Shown here piece by piece: positions 21,614 to 28,986 of a DNA stretch of 64,000 bases. Made by a program: the position numbers and the translations under genes. Under the pieces are notes generated by a model. The model was not told the DNA's origin. It saw only the letters and a program-made list of their open reading frames with translations, and did not search any database. Numbering within the stretch: the stretch's first letter is position 1; each line of letters begins with the position of its first letter. The DNA comes from Marinobacter sp. BW6 (GTDB lineage Bacteria > Pseudomonadota > Gammaproteobacteria > Pseudomonadales > Oleiphilaceae): NCBI RefSeq assembly GCF_008107725.1, contig NZ_VIRN01000054.1:62001-126000 (forward strand), read 5' to 3'.

Positions 21614-22693
21614 ATGCGCCGGTATCTGTTTTTTGTTAACCAGCCCTATTCCTATTCAATCCTGCGCCCCCTCCAGGATGAGATTCGGCGCCGGGGTGGC
21701 GAGACAGCCTGGTTCGTAGCGGGTTGCTCGACGGCTCCGCTTCAATCGGACGAGCGACGTCTTGCCTCCGTTAAAGAGGTCATGGATTACAACGCAGACG
21801 CAACCTTTGTGCCCGGGGATTGGGCACCCTACTTTTTTCCAGGAATCAAAGTGGAGGTGTTCCATGGCATGGCCCGTAACAAGCGTGGGCACAGCAGCGA
21901 GGACGAAAGTGATCACTACCGGATTCGAGGATGGTTTGACCTCTATTGCACCCACGCCTTGAAAGACACGGAGAAATTCCGTGAGTTGGCAGCGCAATAC
22001 CAGCATTTCGGGGTCGCCCATACCGGCTGGCCCAAGTTGGATCCTCTTTTATCGCAACGAGAGGCGGGCAAGAGAAGTCGCTCTGAAAATGAATTGCCGG
22101 TGGTATTTTACGCCTCGACCTTTAGCCGATCCGTTACCTCGGCGCCGGAGCTTGTCGAGAAAATTGGTGAGCTTTCGAGGAACGGCCGCTGGAAGTTCAT
22201 TGTGACCCTGCATCCGAAGATGGATCCTTTCGTGGTGGATCAGTATCGCAAGCTGAGTGGCGAGAACCTTCGCTTCGTCGAGAGCGATGAAGATTTGTTG
22301 CCCCTGCTTCCTCAGGCAGACGTGATGCTTTGTGATACCTCATCCATCATGTTCGAATTCATGTTCCTGGATCGGCCGGTCGTTACCTTCAGAACTAAAA
22401 TGCCGGGTCCCTATCTGATCGACGTCCACGACGTGGAGAGCGTTGAGTCGGCGCTGGAGGAAGCGGTTAAGTACCCCGATGCGTTGATGAGAGAAACGCG
22501 AGCACTTTGCGATCAATTGCACAGTTTCCGCGATGGTCGTTCCAGCGAGCGGGTTCTTGATGCGGTTGAGGATTTCCTGATCAACAAACGTAGCCAACTC
22601 AAGCGCAAGCCGATAAATCTGTTGCGCAAACTGAAAGTCAGGCGCCGGTTGCGCAAGGAACTTGCACGTATGGCACCGGAAAGCTCAGGATAG
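21614..22693 (+). CDS. CDP-glycerol glycerophosphotransferase-like protein
   Basis: The 359-residue protein carries the hallmarks of the teichoic-acid glycerophosphotransferase fold: FHGMARNKRG (His84, compare WHGTPLKK), VTLHPKMDPF, and LCDTSSIMFEFMFLDRPV. These enzymes pass glycerol phosphate, or a related CDP-polyol, to a glycan. In a Gram-negative core cluster it might add a phospho-glycerol-type group. No CDP-glycerol synthetase (tagD) is in the window. The ATG follows the previous stop with no gap, and the C terminus is strongly basic (KLKVRRRLRKEL), suggesting peripheral membrane contact. Confidence 0.8.
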   Translation: MRRYLFFVNQPYSYSILRPLQDEIRRRGGETAWFVAGCSTAPLQSDERRLASVKEVMDYNADATFVPGDWAPYFFPGIKVEVFHGMARNKRGHSSEDESDHYRIRGWFDLYCTHALKDTEKFRELAAQYQHFGVAHTGWPKLDPLLSQREAGKRSRSENELPVVFYASTFSRSVTSAPELVEKIGELSRNGRWKFIVTLHPKMDPFVVDQYRKLSGENLRFVESDEDLLPLLPQADVMLCDTSSIMFEFMFLDRPVVTFRTKMPGPYLIDVHDVESVESALEEAVKYPDALMRETRALCDQLHSFRDGRSSERVLDAVEDFLINKRSQLKRKPINLLRKLKVRRRLRKELARMAPESSG

Positions 22694-22727
22694 ATGCTGC
22701 AAAGGTCCAGACCAGGAATCGAATAAT

Positions 22728-23774
22728 GTGAGCAGCGCCGCCAGTCCTATCAATGTCTTTGTTGCGAGCACTCCTTTGCAGCTGATCAGTTGCTCCGAGG
22801 CTCGTCACCACTATGGCTGCAGTATTGAAACGACACTTCTGATTATTGCCCGACCTGACAATCGGGAGACCGAGGAGCAAATTGCTTTCCTTGCCGAAGC
22901 GCTGGGCTGGCAGGGTATCGAAACCATCTATCTGAAAAAGAGTTCCTTTTATCTTCGTCTGGGAGCGGTTGCCAAGAGCCTTTCGCGACGAAAAATCGAA
23001 CGGTTGTTTATCGGAAACAAGTCCAGCTGGATCCATGAGGTGTTTTACAGGGGCTTCGATAGCGAACAGCTGATTTTTGTGGATGACGGCTTGGCGACGG
23101 TAACCTATTACCACGCCATTCACGACGAGGGTATTGCCTCCCGGATTTCAGCGGCCAAAAAACGGCTTCTGAAAACCATGGGCATCCGGATTCATCGCGT
23201 AGTTCCGGATGTGATCGCTTTCTTCACCTTCTTTCCTTTGCAGAGCTCGGAGCTGGTTCAGGTGCAAGTCCATGATTTTCCCGTGTTTCGCAAAACCTTC
23301 AAGACCTCTGCCCGAGACAGCAGGCAAATGCCCATGGTTGGATTTCTTGGCCAGCCCTTCGGTGGAGAAGAGCGGCTTCAGCAACTGAAACTGCAAATTC
23401 AGCACGTGGTGGAACGTCATCCTGAGAGCCGCGTTGTGTACTTTATGCACCGAAAGGAAAGCCGGGAAGAGTTGGAGAAGTTGCTGGCAGAATTTCCGCT
23501 CGAGATACGACAGGCCGGTCGTCCGATAGAGGTCGAGGTAGCTCTATCCGGAGAAATGTATCTGGCTTTCTACAGCTTTGCTTCAACCGCGCTGTTTACG
23601 CTGAAGAAGATTTTCCCGGAGATCCGGGTGTTCCAGATTGATGACGCCGCACTTGGCGCTCGGCTCCCCTATTATGAGGAGATAAGGAGTATGTTCAGGA
23701 GCGTAGGCGTGGAAACGACGCTCCTGCGGGGGTCACGACTTTTCGAAACGGGCCGGCCTGTCCAGAGTCCATAA
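22728..23774 (+). CDS. GT52/polysialyltransferase-like glycosyltransferase
   Basis: The N terminus INVFVASTPLQLISCSEA resembles the xxxTPLQL opening of lipooligosaccharide sialyltransferases (GT52) and bacterial polysialyltransferases. It also has the acidic motif DDG (119-121, in IFVDDGLAT) described for polysialyltransferases. The usual HP motif is not clear; VVYFMHRKES may stand in for it. Donor sugar is uncertain and no sialic-acid synthesis genes are in the window. I start it at GTG 22728 with AGGA upstream; the frame runs back to 22662. Its 3' end overlaps the convergent ligase gene by 42 bp. Confidence 0.5.
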   Translation: MSSAASPINVFVASTPLQLISCSEARHHYGCSIETTLLIIARPDNRETEEQIAFLAEALGWQGIETIYLKKSSFYLRLGAVAKSLSRRKIERLFIGNKSSWIHEVFYRGFDSEQLIFVDDGLATVTYYHAIHDEGIASRISAAKKRLLKTMGIRIHRVVPDVIAFFTFFPLQSSELVQVQVHDFPVFRKTFKTSARDSRQMPMVGFLGQPFGGEERLQQLKLQIQHVVERHPESRVVYFMHRKESREELEKLLAEFPLEIRQAGRPIEVEVALSGEMYLAFYSFASTALFTLKKIFPEIRVFQIDDAALGARLPYYEEIRSMFRSVGVETTLLRGSRLFETGRPVQSP

Positions 23775-25742
23775 CCCGGCATACTTGTTGAACGTTACCT
23801 GAGCATAGGTGACCGCTGTCAGATAACCCACAGAGCCGTCCAGAAAGCCGAAACGTATGAAGTAAACCTGCACGAACGTCATCAAGCCTCGCAGAGTAGG
23901 GTAGATCATGGTGCGGGTCTTCTTGCCTTTGCGATGCTTCTCCAGAGAACCAAGCCAGGCGTATTTCGCGCTTTTCTCCAGAGAATGGCCGAAATCCCGG
24001 TGTGTGTAGTGCGTCAGGCGGCCTCTGAGGGTTTTGATCTTGCGTCCTGATGGAATCAGTATCCGCTCGTGTACCAGAGCATCTGAAAAACTGACGCCTT
24101 CCCGACGGAACAGTCGGAGCGGTGCTCGGCCGCTGCGCCCGAAATCTAGGCGACTGCCATAAATCGTTACCGCCCAGGGAAGCTTATAGGCGTCCGCGTC
24201 AGGGTCTGCAAGGTGATCGTTGATCTCTTTTGCCAGCTCTGGTGTGACACGCTCATCGGCATCCAGTGACAGCACCCACTCACCGGTCGCTTTCTCAAGT
24301 GCGCGCTGCTTCTGGATGCCAAAACCGGGCCAGTCGGTGATTTCAACAACATCGGCCAATTCTCTGGCCAGTTCCACAGTCCTGTCAGTACTGCCGCTAT
24401 CCAGAACGATGATTTCGTCTGCAACCAGCCTCGCTGACTTCAGGCAGTCGGTAATATGGTCTTCTTCGTTTTTCGTGATAATGGTCGCTGAAACCTTCCG
24501 GGCCCTGTTTCGAACATAGGACGCGCTCAACTCAGTGAACATAGCCGAGGCGATGGAGGCAACCGCAAGCAGGTAGAAGGTAAGGAACAGGGTTCGATTG
24601 AATGTGGCTTCGGTCAGGCCAAAGAAAAAGTACCCAAGGGATACCATACAGCCAGCCGCCGCAAGGTGCGCCGTGGCGGCATGGCGGCTGGACAGGTTTC
24701 TGGCAAAGATGGCCAGCGGAATGAAAATAAGCAGGGCCCAGCTGAGAACGCCGGGAATACCGCTGGTGGCAGCGTTATTGAGCAGATCGTTATGGGCATG
24801 TCCCGTGCAACAGTCCAGGAAGTGCTCCGGCAGATTGCCAGTTGCAACTTCCGATTCTATGCGGTGGGTGTAGCCACCGAGGCCAGCGCCAGTCCAGGGG
24901 TTGTCGCTGAGCATATTCAAGGCCTGCCCCCAGACTTCCAGGCGAATTTCCATACCTGAATCCAGGTGCCCGTTGTGAAGCAAACCATTGAGTGAACTGG
25001 ACATGCGATCGCTGGTGATAATCGCGCCGGCGACGAGCAGTGGCACAACAACCAATCCGGCAATTCGAAGCCTTTTGCTGAGCAGCGGTACAAGCGCGAC
25101 CAGAAGAAATGGCAGAGCAACCAGATTGCTGCGGGTTTCAGACAGCATCGAAATCAGGACCGCAGCCGTTCCACCGGTGAAAAACAGTATCGCCAGGCCC
25201 GTCCGTTTATCCCGAATAAAAAACATGGCAGCAACGATCGTCAACATGCCCCCCAGAAGGGCGAGATTTCCGAAGCTGATCGGGTTGATCCCGCCACCGA
25301 AACGGGAATTCAACACCTGACCAAGCGCGCCCTGGCGGGCAGCAATGGTCACCAGAAAAATCCCGATGACAGACACAGCCATCAGTCCGATGGCAGCAAA
25401 AGTCGTGCGGGCGCCGATCCGCGCATAACTGATGGCAACAATGAGGGGCCAGAACAGGATAAACCTGGCGTGCGTGCCAAATGTCTTTCCGCCCTCGTAG
25501 TCAAAGCCTTCCAGGGTCCAGGACAGAAAGCTCACGAGAACGAAGAACCAGAAGGAAAAGTGCAGTAGCCTGAGCTCTTTGGGCTTGTCCCAGCCGGTTC
25601 TATACAGTGATTTCCGGGCACTGAGGGCCATGCCTGCAATGGCGAGCAAGAGGGTTGCGCCGGCCAGGATGCTCGAAGACAGCAGTGCGCCGCCGAGCCC
25701 GATGATCAGCAGTGCATGGAAGGCCAGTCTGGGGTTCAACAT
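23733..25742 (-). CDS. Fusion: O-antigen ligase (WaaL/Wzy_C) plus family 2 glycosyltransferase (WaaE-like)
   Basis: One uninterrupted 669-residue frame. Residues 1-405 are a polytopic membrane protein with about a dozen hydrophobic segments and a large periplasmic loop. The loop contains NPWTGAGLGGY (281-291) and GHAHNDLLN (314-322), the Wzy_C/WaaL signature. From about 416 a GT2 domain starts (SATIITKNEEDHI, IIVLDSGSTDRT), with its DxD in LSLDADERV (491-499) and the WaaE/KdtX tail (GSVGYLTAVTYAQVTFNKY). The first half joins lipid-linked glycan to core in the periplasm; the second adds a sugar, usually glucose, to inner core in the cytosol. The start overlaps the stop of the acyltransferase gene (ATGTTGA). 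Confidence 0.88.
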   Translation of the reverse strand: MLNPRLAFHALLIIGLGGALLSSSILAGATLLLAIAGMALSARKSLYRTGWDKPKELRLLHFSFWFFVLVSFLSWTLEGFDYEGGKTFGTHARFILFWPLIVAISYARIGARTTFAAIGLMAVSVIGIFLVTIAARQGALGQVLNSRFGGGINPISFGNLALLGGMLTIVAAMFFIRDKRTGLAILFFTGGTAAVLISMLSETRSNLVALPFLLVALVPLLSKRLRIAGLVVVPLLVAGAIITSDRMSSSLNGLLHNGHLDSGMEIRLEVWGQALNMLSDNPWTGAGLGGYTHRIESEVATGNLPEHFLDCCTGHAHNDLLNNAATSGIPGVLSWALLIFIPLAIFARNLSSRHAATAHLAAAGCMVSLGYFFFGLTEATFNRTLFLTFYLLAVASIASAMFTELSASYVRNRARKVSATIITKNEEDHITDCLKSARLVADEIIVLDSGSTDRTVELARELADVVEITDWPGFGIQKQRALEKATGEWVLSLDADERVTPELAKEINDHLADPDADAYKLPWAVTIYGSRLDFGRSGRAPLRLFRREGVSFSDALVHERILIPSGRKIKTLRGRLTHYTHRDFGHSLEKSAKYAWLGSLEKHRKGKKTRTMIYPTLRGLMTFVQVYFIRFGFLDGSVGYLTAVTYAQVTFNKYAGLWTLDRPARFEKS

Positions 25743-26641
25743 ACGCGGTCCGGGTTATAGGGGTTGATTTCGCCGGGTGGCCGATGGCGCATGCGCTTGT
25801 ACTCCCACTGATACTGCTCGGGGATTTCTCGCACGCATTGTTCGATGGCGTGATTCATGGCCGTAGTTGCGGCCACAGGGTCCTTGTCGCCGAGGCCCGG
25901 GCCGGTCTCGCGCACGACGATCCGGAATCCGGAAGCATCGGGCAGGCGTTCGGCATAGGTGATCAGCACGTTGGCGCCGGTGCGCTGGATCAGTTTGGAC
26001 ACCAGGGTCATGGTCTTCACTTCCATGCCAAAGAACGGCGCAAAGGCGTTGCCTTTGCCCCGGGGTGACTGATCCGGCAGAATCCCGGCAACACCGCCTT
26101 CCCGGAGAATCGAGGCAAGTCGGGCCAGTCCACGACGGTCGCCCCGCACCAGCTCAGAGCCAAGCCGCCCGCGCACCTTGATCATGTAGTCTTCGAACTC
26201 GGGCATATTCGGTGGGCTATAAAGCGCTGCCATCTTGTAGCGCGAGGAAAAGAACAGCCCGGCCAGCTCCCAGTTCCCCAGGTGCGGCGCGAGGAGAATC
26301 AGGCCCCTGTCGCCGGTCATGGCCTTGTCGATCAGTTCCAGCCCCTCGGTTTCCCGGATCAGGCCAAGGCATTTCTCCACCGGCCACTCCCACATCAGGG
26401 GGACCTCGAGCATCGTCATGCCGGTCTGGGCCAGGGACCTTTTCGACATAACTGCGCGTTCGGTGTCTGACAGCTCGGGGAGGCATATGGACAGGTTAAT
26501 GTCGGTTACCTGTCGCGACTTGGTGGGCAGTCGCCACACCAGATAACCCACGAAACGACCCACCCGCTGGGCGCCGGCAAGGGATAACCAGCCGGCAACC
26601 CTGAGCAGCCCGGCAATGACGAAATATTTGATCTTGCTCAT
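25736..26641 (-). CDS. Lipid A biosynthesis acyltransferase (LpxL/LpxM family)
   Basis: This family puts secondary acyl chains on lipid A at the inner membrane. The 301-residue protein has a hydrophobic N-terminal anchor ([20 protein letters not shown]), the HX4E catalytic motif in APHLGNWE, and the [19 protein letters not shown] block. It overlaps manC upstream by ATGA and the fused ligase downstream by 7 bp, forming a three-gene leftward operon. A second family member lies at 32.2-33.1 kb; which one acts first (LpxL) or last (LpxM) is not clear, though the other resembles E. coli LpxL more. Confidence 0.88.
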
Positions 26642-28059
26642 TTCCGGCCGTACCGATCCTCGTAACGAACAATGTCGTCTTCACCCAGATAAGAGCCCGA
26701 CTGGACTTCGATCAGTTCCAGATCGATGACTCCCGGATTCTCCAGCGAGTGCACCTGGCCAACCGGAATGTAGGTGGACTGGTTCTCGGTGACCAGATAG
26801 GTTTTCTCGCCGTTGGTGACCCGGGCGGTGCCACTGACCACGATCCAGTGCTCGGCGCGATGGTGATGCATCTGTACAGAGAGTTTGGCGCCGGGTTTGA
26901 CCGTGATGCGTTTGACCTGGTATCGGGCGCCATTGTCGATGGAATCGTAAACGCCCCAGGGCCGATAGACTTCCCGATGGTTCATGTGTTCGTGGCGACC
27001 ATCGGTTTTGATCCTTTCCACCACGGTTTTGACGTCCTGGACACTGTCTTTGTGAGCGACCAGAAGGGCATCCTTGGTTTCGATAACCACCAGGTTGTCC
27101 ACGCCAACCGTTGCTACCAGCCGGCTGTCGGCACGGACCAGCGTGTTGGCGGTATTGTGGGTAATCACGTCGCCGGTGAGGCTGTTGCCGTCCGCGTCCT
27201 TGTCACTGACTTCCCATAGCGCCGACCAGGAGCCGATATCGCTCCAGCCGGCATCCAGCGAAACCACGGCAGCCTTGTCGGTCTTCTCCATGACGGCATA
27301 GTCCACAGAGTCCGAGGGGCATTCCGCGAATCGTTCGGCGTTAATCCGGGTGAAATGCAAGTCATCGGCGGTATCTGCGATGGCGGCACGGCACGCGGCC
27401 AGGATGTCCGGGCGATGGGCTTCCAGTTCCTCGAGGTACTGACGGGCGCCAAACAGGAACATCCCGCTGTTCCAAAGGTACTCGCCGGAATCCAGGTAGC
27501 GATTTGCAGTCGCCTGGTCCGGCTTCTCGACAAACTTGTCCACCAGGTAGCTGTCGGGGCCAAGCTCCGTGCCACGATGGATGTAGCCGTAGCCGGTTTC
27601 CGGATGGTTCGGCACGATGCCGAAGGTAACCAGTTTACCCTCCCGTGCCAGCGGAATGGCTTTCTTTACCCCCTCCTGAAAGGCCATGACGTCCTTGATC
27701 AAATGGTCCGCTGCCAACACCAGCATCAGGGGATCATCGGCACCTTTGTCCGCAGCCTCGGTCAGCTGTAGCGCTGCCAATGCGATGGCCGGCGCCGTAT
27801 TCCGGCCACAGGGCTCCAGAATGATGCGCGTATCTTCGTGGCCGGATTGCCGCATTTGCTCCGCAGCCAGGAACCGGTGTTCCTCGTTGCAGATCAGAAG
27901 AGGGTTTGCTGCGTCCATGCCCTCAAGCCGCGCAACGGTGGCCTGCAACATCGACAGGGGACCGTTGGTCAGTTTCAGGAACTGTTTCGGATTCAGCTGG
28001 CGCGACATCGGCCAAAGGCGTGAGCCAGTGCCGCCAGCCATAATGACGGGGTGAATCAT
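26638..28059 (-). CDS. manC: Mannose-1-phosphate guanylyltransferase/mannose-6-phosphate isomerase
   Basis: This bifunctional type II enzyme makes GDP-mannose. The 473-residue product begins with the nucleotidyltransferase signature [13 protein letters not shown] (about 5-17), has KQFLKL and FVEKPD, and ends in a type II PMI cupin domain ([18 protein letters not shown]). Length is that of AlgA/WbpW/XanB. CGGAG lies 7-8 nt upstream of the ATG. Within this cluster it would supply GDP-mannose to a mannosyltransferase among the GT4 enzymes, or to an exopolysaccharide made elsewhere. Confidence 0.93.
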
Positions 28060-28191
28060 CTGTACACTCCGGGCTTGAGTTAAAGAATGCCAAGAAAAAC
28101 ATCAAAATCAGGCGCATCATCTTATCATAAGGCAACCATGATATTGTTCTGAGCAATCCGTAAACTGATTGGCCCGACACCAGGAATTGTG

Positions 28192-28986
28192 ATGAAGCTT
28201 CCGTTGTCTGTTTATTACATCACCCAGGACGAAGAACTGCGATTGCCAGAGTCACTTGCGAAGGTTTCCGGCTGGGTCGATGAGATTATCGTAGTCGATT
28301 CCGGAAGCACTGACCGAACCCGTGAAATTGCAGAAGCGGCGGGCGCCCGGTTTGTTCATAATGACTGGCAGGGGTTTGCCTGCCAGAAGGCCTTCGCCGC
28401 AAGCCTGTGCCGCAATGACTGGGTGCTGGATCTGGATGCGGATGAGGTGTTGTCGAACGAGCTTGTGGCCAACATCAAGGCCCTGTTTTCAAAGCCTGTC
28501 GACCCGAATATTGCGGGGTTTCGGATGCGCTGGGTGCTGTCCCAGCCAGATTCCCGGCATCCGTTCCGTCATGATAAATCGAAGAAAATCCTGAGACTCT
28601 ACAATCGGACCAAGGCGGTGATTGAGGCTGAAAAAGACAGCAACAATGACCGGCCCCAGGTGAAAGCCGGCCGGGTTCTGGATCTCAAGGGTGATGTATT
28701 GCATCGCACGCTGATTTCCCTTGAGCAGATGGAGCGCAAGTACTGCCAGTTGTCGACGGAGCAGGCCCGCTTTATTGCCGCAAAGGGACGGCGGATTTCC
28801 AGTGCCCGCCTGTTCGCCGAGTTTCCCGTGAAGTTCCTGAAGTATTACCTGTTGCACCGCCAGATTCTGAATGGTTGGTTTGGCCTTAGCGTCGCCATTA
28901 CTGCGGCCAATCGGAATTTTATGCGTCTTGCAAAGGCTCGTGAGATGCAAATGCTGGCTGAGTTTGAGCAGGAAAGTACCCGGTAG
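28192..28986 (+). CDS. Family 2 glycosyltransferase (WaaE/KdtX-like)
   Basis: The 264-residue protein has the GT-A nucleotide fold: LSVYYITQDEEL, IIVVDSGSTDRTREIA, and the metal-binding DLDADE. RFVHNDWQGFACQKAFA is typical of the WaaE beta-1,4-glucosyltransferase group. It is a stand-alone relative of the GT2 half of the 669-residue fusion. The frame includes a GTG just upstream, but AGGA lies 6 nt before the ATG at 28192. It is divergent from manC. Confidence 0.88.
   Translation: MKLPLSVYYITQDEELRLPESLAKVSGWVDEIIVVDSGSTDRTREIAEAAGARFVHNDWQGFACQKAFAASLCRNDWVLDLDADEVLSNELVANIKALFSKPVDPNIAGFRMRWVLSQPDSRHPFRHDKSKKILRLYNRTKAVIEAEKDSNNDRPQVKAGRVLDLKGDVLHRTLISLEQMERKYCQLSTEQARFIAAKGRRISSARLFAEFPVKFLKYYLLHRQILNGWFGLSVAITAANRNFMRLAKAREMQMLAEFEQESTR

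Follow-up and report, generated by a model that had tools for sequence, protein, structure and literature searches.

An O-antigen ligase joined to a WaaE-type glycosyltransferase in Marinobacter: a predicted two-sided enzyme of the lipopolysaccharide core

In the genome of Marinobacter sp. BW6 one gene appears to join two enzymes of lipopolysaccharide (LPS) synthesis that are expected on opposite sides of the membrane, an O-antigen ligase and a WaaE-type glycosyltransferase of family GT2, and the question raised by this locus is whether the fusion is genuine and, if so, what a single chain might do on both sides. The gene lies in a stretch of 64,000 nucleotides (contig NZ_VIRN01000054.1, positions 62,001 to 126,000), referred to here as the window, to which all coordinates apply unless another locus (L) is named; other genomes are denoted by G. 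The original prediction that both enzymes share a 669-residue frame is borne out: the gene occupies 23733-25742 of the minus strand, running from an ATG at 25742 to a stop codon at 23735-23733, and its 669 codons hold no internal stop or gap. Both domains exceed their Pfam cut-offs in the one protein, Wzy_C (PF04932) at residues 194-335 (E 4e-19, 69.2 bits against a curated cut-off of 31.7) and Glycos_transf_2 (PF00535) at residues 418-537 (E 4e-19). From sequence comparison and modelling, the product is likely to be a bifunctional, membrane-spanning LPS enzyme, with its GT2 half in the cytosol and the large loop of its ligase half in the periplasm.

The fusion is a real, conserved gene. It was found in 57 of the 151 genomes of the family (own genome included), 51 with a full ligase half and six with gaps in that half, all 57 being confirmed as single stop-free open reading frames (ORFs), the only kind of frame that was counted as fused. 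It is present in 48 of the 112 genomes of the same genus and in 9 of the 39 of other genera in the family, and among named organisms Marinobacter maroccanus (96%) and M. flavimaris (95%) have some of the proteins nearest to it. Four of the 368 other genomes of the class (369, own included) also carry it (G347, G362, G206 and G331), with both domains recognised by Pfam and an overall identity of 36-41%, and taken together the carriers represent four genus codes within the family and, in the rest of the class, four other families. A phylum-wide search of 398 genomes, that of BW6 among them, listed no full-length fusion besides the one in BW6 at E <= 1e-30, with no more than three candidates scored per genome, and none of 72,556 plasmid and 50,697 phage records had one place covering 80% of the fusion protein. 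Genome sampling was even and incomplete, and few candidates were scored per genome (at most seven in the family search), a design that weakly similar fusions would escape. The search for the domain pair across gammaproteobacteria that had been proposed has been answered by these counts, and the suspicion voiced with it, that an assembly or sequencing error had joined two genes, is refuted and may be treated as a practical impossibility because independent genomes carry the same stop-free fusion.

Two further candidates were discarded, as frames of 696 (G314) and 752 (G164) residues proved on translation to be pairs of tandem genes with stops between them. A different joining was seen in another family (G294; L104 3426-5354), where a 643-residue frame unites the same type of GT2 with a GT4-type glycosyltransferase, not with a ligase. 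The 762-residue ligase frame of G211 (L102 834-3119) carries some 340 residues in front of its ligase part, and a WaaE-like GT2 gene comes directly after the frame; no extra Pfam domain was recognised in it. As to whether the GT2 half of the fusion might be translated separately from an internal start, this is not indicated, because only two candidate start codons (ATG, GTG or TTG) occur in codons 381-425, namely 401 (ATG) and 405 (TTG), and no clear Shine-Dalgarno-like stretch was visible by eye upstream of either.

The ligase half (residues 1-409, 24516-25742, minus strand) resembles the solved WaaL closely. A profile of 19 fusions searched against PDB sequences ranked WaaL 7tpg/7tpj first (E 8e-25), and VIA-align superposed model residues 1-407 on 7tpg_B with a Z of 32.0 and a root-mean-square deviation of 3.4 over 382 aligned residues, the next rows being FtsW chains at Z 15 and 13. 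Twelve transmembrane (TM) helices were counted on the AF2 model, with a loop of 84 residues between helices 9 and 10 (residues 244-327, 24762-25013, minus strand), which by hydropathy and the AF2 model is placed as in WaaL and is predicted to be periplasmic. Residues R191, R265 and H313 of 7tpg, which we take to be the WaaL catalytic set, align with R204 (25131-25133), R267 (24942-24944) and H317 (24792-24794) of the fusion, the last two lying in the large loop, and among 61 distinct fusions these are kept in 57, 56 and 55 respectively. H317, part of an HAHND motif, is presumed to be the catalytic base; a central catalytic histidine, His338, is mentioned for WaaL in PMC10449877. In possessing a Wzy_C domain over the cut-off, 12 TM helices with a large TM9-TM10 loop in a WaaL fold, and the Arg/Arg/His positions, the N-terminal half has the features of a WaaL-type ligase.

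Wzy_C covers ligases, polymerases and protein O-oligosaccharyltransferases, and it could accordingly be asked whether the N-terminal half is instead a polymerase of the Wzy type, or a ligase that handles some other glycan. A second Wzy_C-type gene does lie beside or near the intact fusion in G139, G146, G119, G103, G061, G016, G041 and G044, which would favour such a reading, but the strength of the structural match to WaaL, the presence of the WaaL residues and the position in an LPS-core locus make it improbable. It is further disfavoured by a separate Wzy_C gene that lies elsewhere in this genome, in a cluster with a Polysacc_synt (Wzx-like) flippase. Of the three Wzy_C genes of the genome the fusion is the only one within the LPS-core cluster; the third carries both Wzy_C and Wzy_C_2.

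The GT2 half (residues 415-660, 23763-24500, minus strand) has 45.5% identity, over its residues 4-250, to the Klebsiella protein encoded between waaA and coaD, which from its gene position we take to be WaaE. Its acidic motifs are intact: D448, D494, D496 and E497, together with G450, S492, H558 and E559, are kept in all 61 fusions, and residues 494-496 (24255-24263, minus strand) spell DAD, presumably the DXD-type metal/nucleotide-sugar motif of GT2 enzymes. The fused domain is WaaE-like and is not filed as WaaE, because on a quick tree the fused GT2s are sister to the Klebsiella/Aeromonas clade and do not group inside it. The original prediction had seen a second WaaE-like GT2 nearby and had proposed on that account that the fused domain may have a distinct acceptor. 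The separate gene (28189-28986, plus strand) is indeed a GT2, but at only 31.8% identity to Klebsiella WaaE it is more distant than the fused domain, which reverses the argument.

The fused domain may also be compared with stand-alone enzymes of its type across the family. Among the matches listed (at most seven candidates scored per genome), a stand-alone GT2 match at E <= 1e-27 was present in none of the 57 genomes with a fusion and in 21 of the 94 without one. In the corresponding clusters of two non-fused Marinobacter genomes (G106 and G078), a WaaE-type gene and a ligase of 27-28% identity occupy a segment between the same conserved neighbours, which makes the fused and the separate arrangement look like alternative forms of a core cassette.

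The placement of the two halves on opposite sides of the membrane had been predicted, and the topology check agrees, by prediction. Beyond the large loop come three more helices, and the last of them gives way to a basic RNRARK stretch just ahead of the GT2 domain; if the ligase loop is periplasmic, the GT2 half is therefore predicted to be cytosolic. Hydropathy gave 11 segments in a first, cruder count and 12 in a second, and an automatic count over 65 fused ORFs gave 12 helices in 59 and 11 in three others, this count being off by one at times.

If the product is indeed a two-sided enzyme, its C-terminal GT2 would add a hexose to the lipid A-core in the cytosol, probably glucose and probably onto an inner-core heptose as WaaE does; MsbA would flip the lipid A-core; and the N-terminal ligase of the same chain would then transfer an undecaprenyl-diphosphate-linked polysaccharide to the core at the periplasmic face, by means of R204, R267 and H317.

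An important consideration in judging how tightly the two activities might be linked is that both halves are separable in evolution, and the GT2 is retained in every fusion examined. All three of R204, R267 and H317 are kept in 54 of the 61 fusions. Of the seven without the full set, G331 has a leucine in the H317 column and a histidine two columns earlier, with no large gap; the other six are gapped against residues 9-400 of the BW6 protein, have lost at least one catalytic position and keep the GT2 motif intact (L109 5610-7520, L110 5140-7101, L111 6632-8569, L112 4725-6398, L113 4714-6390 and L114 4665-6188). In G137, 37 residues are gapped and both histidines are lost, in G095 71 are gapped with the loss of R267 and retention of R204 and H317, and in G102 (84 residues), G023 and G029 (131 each) and G027 (181) all three positions are gone, with alignment uncertain in the most diverged of the six. 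These ligase halves had been considered as possible mosaics and proved to be in-frame gaps. When two of them, from G027 and G102, were scanned as proteins, Wzy_C was not found at a Pfam E <= 0.001, and G137 retains a partial match. Automatic helix counts for G137, G095, G102, G027, G029 and G023 were 12, 12, 12, 7, 10 and 9, and counts by homologous segments 12, 12, 12, 8, 10 and 10; an even number of helices in all six was considered as proof of topology and set aside, the parity being clear in only three.

The ratio of nonsynonymous to synonymous substitution (dN/dS) differs between the halves. For the GT2 it was 0.025-0.096, pairs with damaged fusions included, in those 16 of the 19 chosen pairs for which a value was obtained (saturation left four of the 19 pairs without a value for one or both halves). 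For the ligase half it was 0.36 between G023 and G029 and 0.51-0.54 between each of these and the intact G044, against 0.17 for the intact pair G041-G044; two G102 pairs gave 0.20 and 0.35, and pairs with G137 and G095 gave 0.13-0.21, near the range of intact pairs (0.06-0.18). A relaxation of constraint on the ligase half is thus visible in some of the six gapped fusions, not in all.

The damaged fusions tend to be accompanied by a second ligase-like gene. A stand-alone Wzy_C protein whose gene lies some 4 kb away from the damaged G102 fusion was used as query against the 57 family genomes, and at the set threshold of E <= 1e-15 a match was present in 18, namely 5 of the 6 with a damaged and 13 of the 51 with an intact ligase half (Fisher p 0.0097, with kinship ignored and a query taken from a damaged genome). 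At E <= 1e-70, a cut chosen after the list had been seen, the figures were 5 of 6 against 5 of 51 (p 0.00033, kinship again ignored). In G102, G095 and G029 no more than about 10 kb separate the second gene from the fusion; the distance is 227 kb in G027, and in G137 the two are on different contigs. G023 is the exception, and there a different Wzy_C gene lies some 6 kb from the fusion. This stand-alone type occurs in four of the six damaged-fusion genomes (L165 2025-3407, L166 3907-5328, L167 2319-3722 and L174 518-1963), with a weaker match in a fifth, and it is possibly a replacing ligase; we infer that it functions as a ligase, and it could be a polymerase instead. The two fusions nearest to that of G137 among three intact ones compared, those of G062 and G114, are each intact and accompanied by the second gene. 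A second Wzy_C-type gene also stands directly beside the intact fusion in four Marinobacter genomes (G139, G146, G119 and G103; L119, L120, L122 and L124). A replacement might have proceeded by the arrival of a second ligase, after which the fused ligase would have become redundant and been cut down, the GT2 not being losable. With the GT2 intact in all 61 fusions, the ligase gapped in six of them and a second ligase-like gene in five of these six, the GT2 therefore seems to be the retained function and the ligase replaceable.

The original prediction went further in proposing that the fusion would couple inner-core glucosylation to ligation, and in its strictest form such coupling would mean that the sugar added by the GT2 is itself the acceptor for the polysaccharide attached by the ligase half. 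This is how WadA of Brucella works according to the available portions of PMC9938171, and the clustering of the fused halves on both trees (see below) would fit it. The fusions with damaged ligases, in contrast, keep their GT2 under strong constraint, which would be expected only if the replacing ligase needs the sugar or if the sugar is structural, and we consider strict coupling possible and rather doubtful. The claim of coupling has not fared well in its obligatory form: six fusions with damaged ligases retain the GT2, and close relatives of the fused GT2 are encoded on their own at loci where the ligase belongs to a distant clade.

Several observations weigh against the reading of the fusion as a bifunctional two-sided enzyme, or narrow it. 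At least one catalytic position of the ligase is missing from six of the 61 fusions, and coupling is therefore not obligatory. On the tree the fused GT2s stand beside WaaE proper as its sister group, and to judge from this relationship donor and acceptor could differ. The Wzy_C domain occurs in Wzy polymerases too, and a ligase cannot be told from a polymerase with full certainty by sequence. Confidence in the AF2 model is modest (mean pLDDT 70, pTM 0.65), and it is poor in the GT2 half, where pLDDT blocks range from 36 to 78 and GT-A folds were matched only weakly (Z about 8), and model residues 313-318, which contain H317, have a pLDDT below 50.

The origin of the fusion bears on a further possibility, that of a neutral or convenient joining of operon neighbours. 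Trees were quick searches without bootstrap, assessed by SH-aLRT support. The GT2 tree comprised 75 domains, a thinned selection of the 118 above a score cut (the window gene at 28189 fell below it), and placed 22 fused halves in one clade with ten stand-alone rows (SH-aLRT 97); the sister of this clade contained the Klebsiella and Aeromonas sequences and nine separate enzymes of the family (SH-aLRT 99). Two more separate GT2s of family genomes fell in a more distant clade and none in the fused clade. The ligase tree comprised 59 domains, of which 16 fused ones were hand-chosen and those with a damaged ligase half were left out, and the set was gathered with a profile partly built from fusions, which may favour their relatives; it placed the 16 fused halves in one clade with two stand-alone rows (SH-aLRT 95). 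Constraining the fused rows to one clade was not rejected on either tree (p-AU 0.517 for GT2 and 0.172 for the ligase), and a single fusion event is the simplest reading, one that the trees allow. The ten stand-alone GT2 rows of the fused clade may have split off later or may be older than the fusion. The fusion probably came from tandem genes, because at nine loci of the class (L072, L073, L074, L076, L082, L087, L098, L100 and L102) a separate ligase gene is directly followed by a separate GT2 gene, the order seen in the fusion; at L078 and L083 the order is reversed.

It may well be asked on this basis whether two independent core enzymes merely share a chain, with the ligase membrane domain only anchoring the GT2 and no hand-over of substrate. 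The abutting genes at the nine loci would suit such a history, as would the decay of the ligase half with the GT2 kept, and the same GT2 type stands alone where the ligases of the locus are unrelated. Pure neutrality would not, however, strongly predict a covalent link maintained across four genus codes and four further families, and none of the family's separate GT2s placed on the tree could be recognised as a split descendant of the fused clade, so that we find this account a serious one and somewhat doubtful. Neutral joining and strict coupling are both narrower readings within the explanation of the fusion as a membrane-spanning bifunctional enzyme, not alternatives to it.

The surroundings of the gene are those of an LPS-core locus (18.5-34.5 kb), with a GT9 heptosyltransferase, a Kdo/WaaP-family kinase, GT4 enzymes, a Glyphos_transf-like gene, two Lip_A_acyltrans genes, ManC, an ELM1-family protein and a Kdo transferase (WaaA). 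The fusion is the last of three overlapping genes on the minus strand, the first encoding a ManC-type mannose-1-phosphate guanylyltransferase/mannose-6-phosphate isomerase (26638-28059) and the second a member of the Lip_A_acyltrans family (25736-26641), whose stop overlaps the fusion start (25736-25742). A homologue of this acyltransferase-like gene lies directly upstream of the fusion in all 23 named relatives (L033-L055). Homologues of the Glyphos_transf-like gene (21614-22693, plus strand) lie within the locus in 21 of the 23 named relatives, at a distance of about 5 kb in some of them; outside the family, 8 of 9 loci have one. The gene recurs in loci that carry the fusion as well as in those of related stand-alone GT2 genes of other families. 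At its 3' end the fusion overlaps a convergent polysialyltransferase-like ORF (22662-23774) by 42 bases (23733-23774), and a homologue of this ORF adjoins the fusion in several close relatives.

A broader proposal, which we put forward as unlikely in its entirety, is that the Gammaproteobacteria evolved a two-sided O-antigen ligase of their own, a second class independent of the first and represented by the fusion. In this class the acceptor sugar would be written in the cytosol and used in the periplasm after flipping; once a second ligase had been acquired, the ligase half would have suffered repeated in-frame cuts, its membrane domain surviving to anchor the GT2. If that were true, a ligase fold would have been converted into a membrane mount for an indispensable inner-core glycosyltransferase. 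The natural series of genomes with an intact fusion, with an intact fusion and a second ligase-like gene, and with a damaged fusion and a second gene makes the need for coupling directly testable. The fusion is common in Marinobacter, a marine genus not known to be pathogenic, and suggests that the two-sided ligase arose twice, with opposite domain orders.

Comparison with known systems places the fusion between them. The fold, the large loop and the R/R/H positions of the ligase half are those of WaaL (7tpg/7tpj), but 7tpg is a stand-alone protein of 403-413 residues and the fusion has a GT2 appended after TM12. WaaE, described in the available portions of PMC5372535 as a heptose I beta-1,4-glucosyltransferase, shares the GT2 domain and differs in being a separate protein, outside the clade of the fused GT2s. 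Among the papers listed by literature searches on ligase-GT2 fusions and on Marinobacter LPS, none was recognised as a report of the Marinobacter fusion protein, and the portions available of PMC9938171, PMC5372535, PMC6171495, PMC3210612, PMC10449877, PMC12419801 and PMC6461280 mention no ligase-glycosyltransferase fusion other than WadA. WadA of Brucella is a bifunctional O-antigen ligase whose glycosyltransferase domain adds the terminal glucose of the core, to which the O-antigen is then attached (Servais et al. 2023, PMC9938171, in the portions available). As described there, it is like the fusion in combining a cytosolic glycosyltransferase and a 12-TM O-antigen ligase in one chain (an arrangement that for the fusion is predicted), in the part of both halves in completing the LPS core, and in a conserved histidine and arginine in a large periplasmic loop; it differs in that its glycosyltransferase (residues 1-266) precedes its ligase (267-703), whereas in the fusion the ligase comes first, in that it places glucose on Kdo, whereas WaaE acts on heptose I, and in belonging to another bacterial class. 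The fusion thus has a core glycosyltransferase and an O-antigen ligase on one chain, with the cytosolic and periplasmic sites opposed by prediction only and with a glycosyltransferase that is not N-terminal to the ligase. It is WadA-like in outline and is not filed as a member of that group, because its domain order is reversed and its GT2 is WaaE-type. From the domain order and the different type of glycosyltransferase, that of WadA being probably of family GT25, we infer that the two arose independently. The two-sided ligase already has its precedent in WadA, which the original prediction had left unmentioned, and what looks new here is the version in reversed order, with a WaaE-type GT2.

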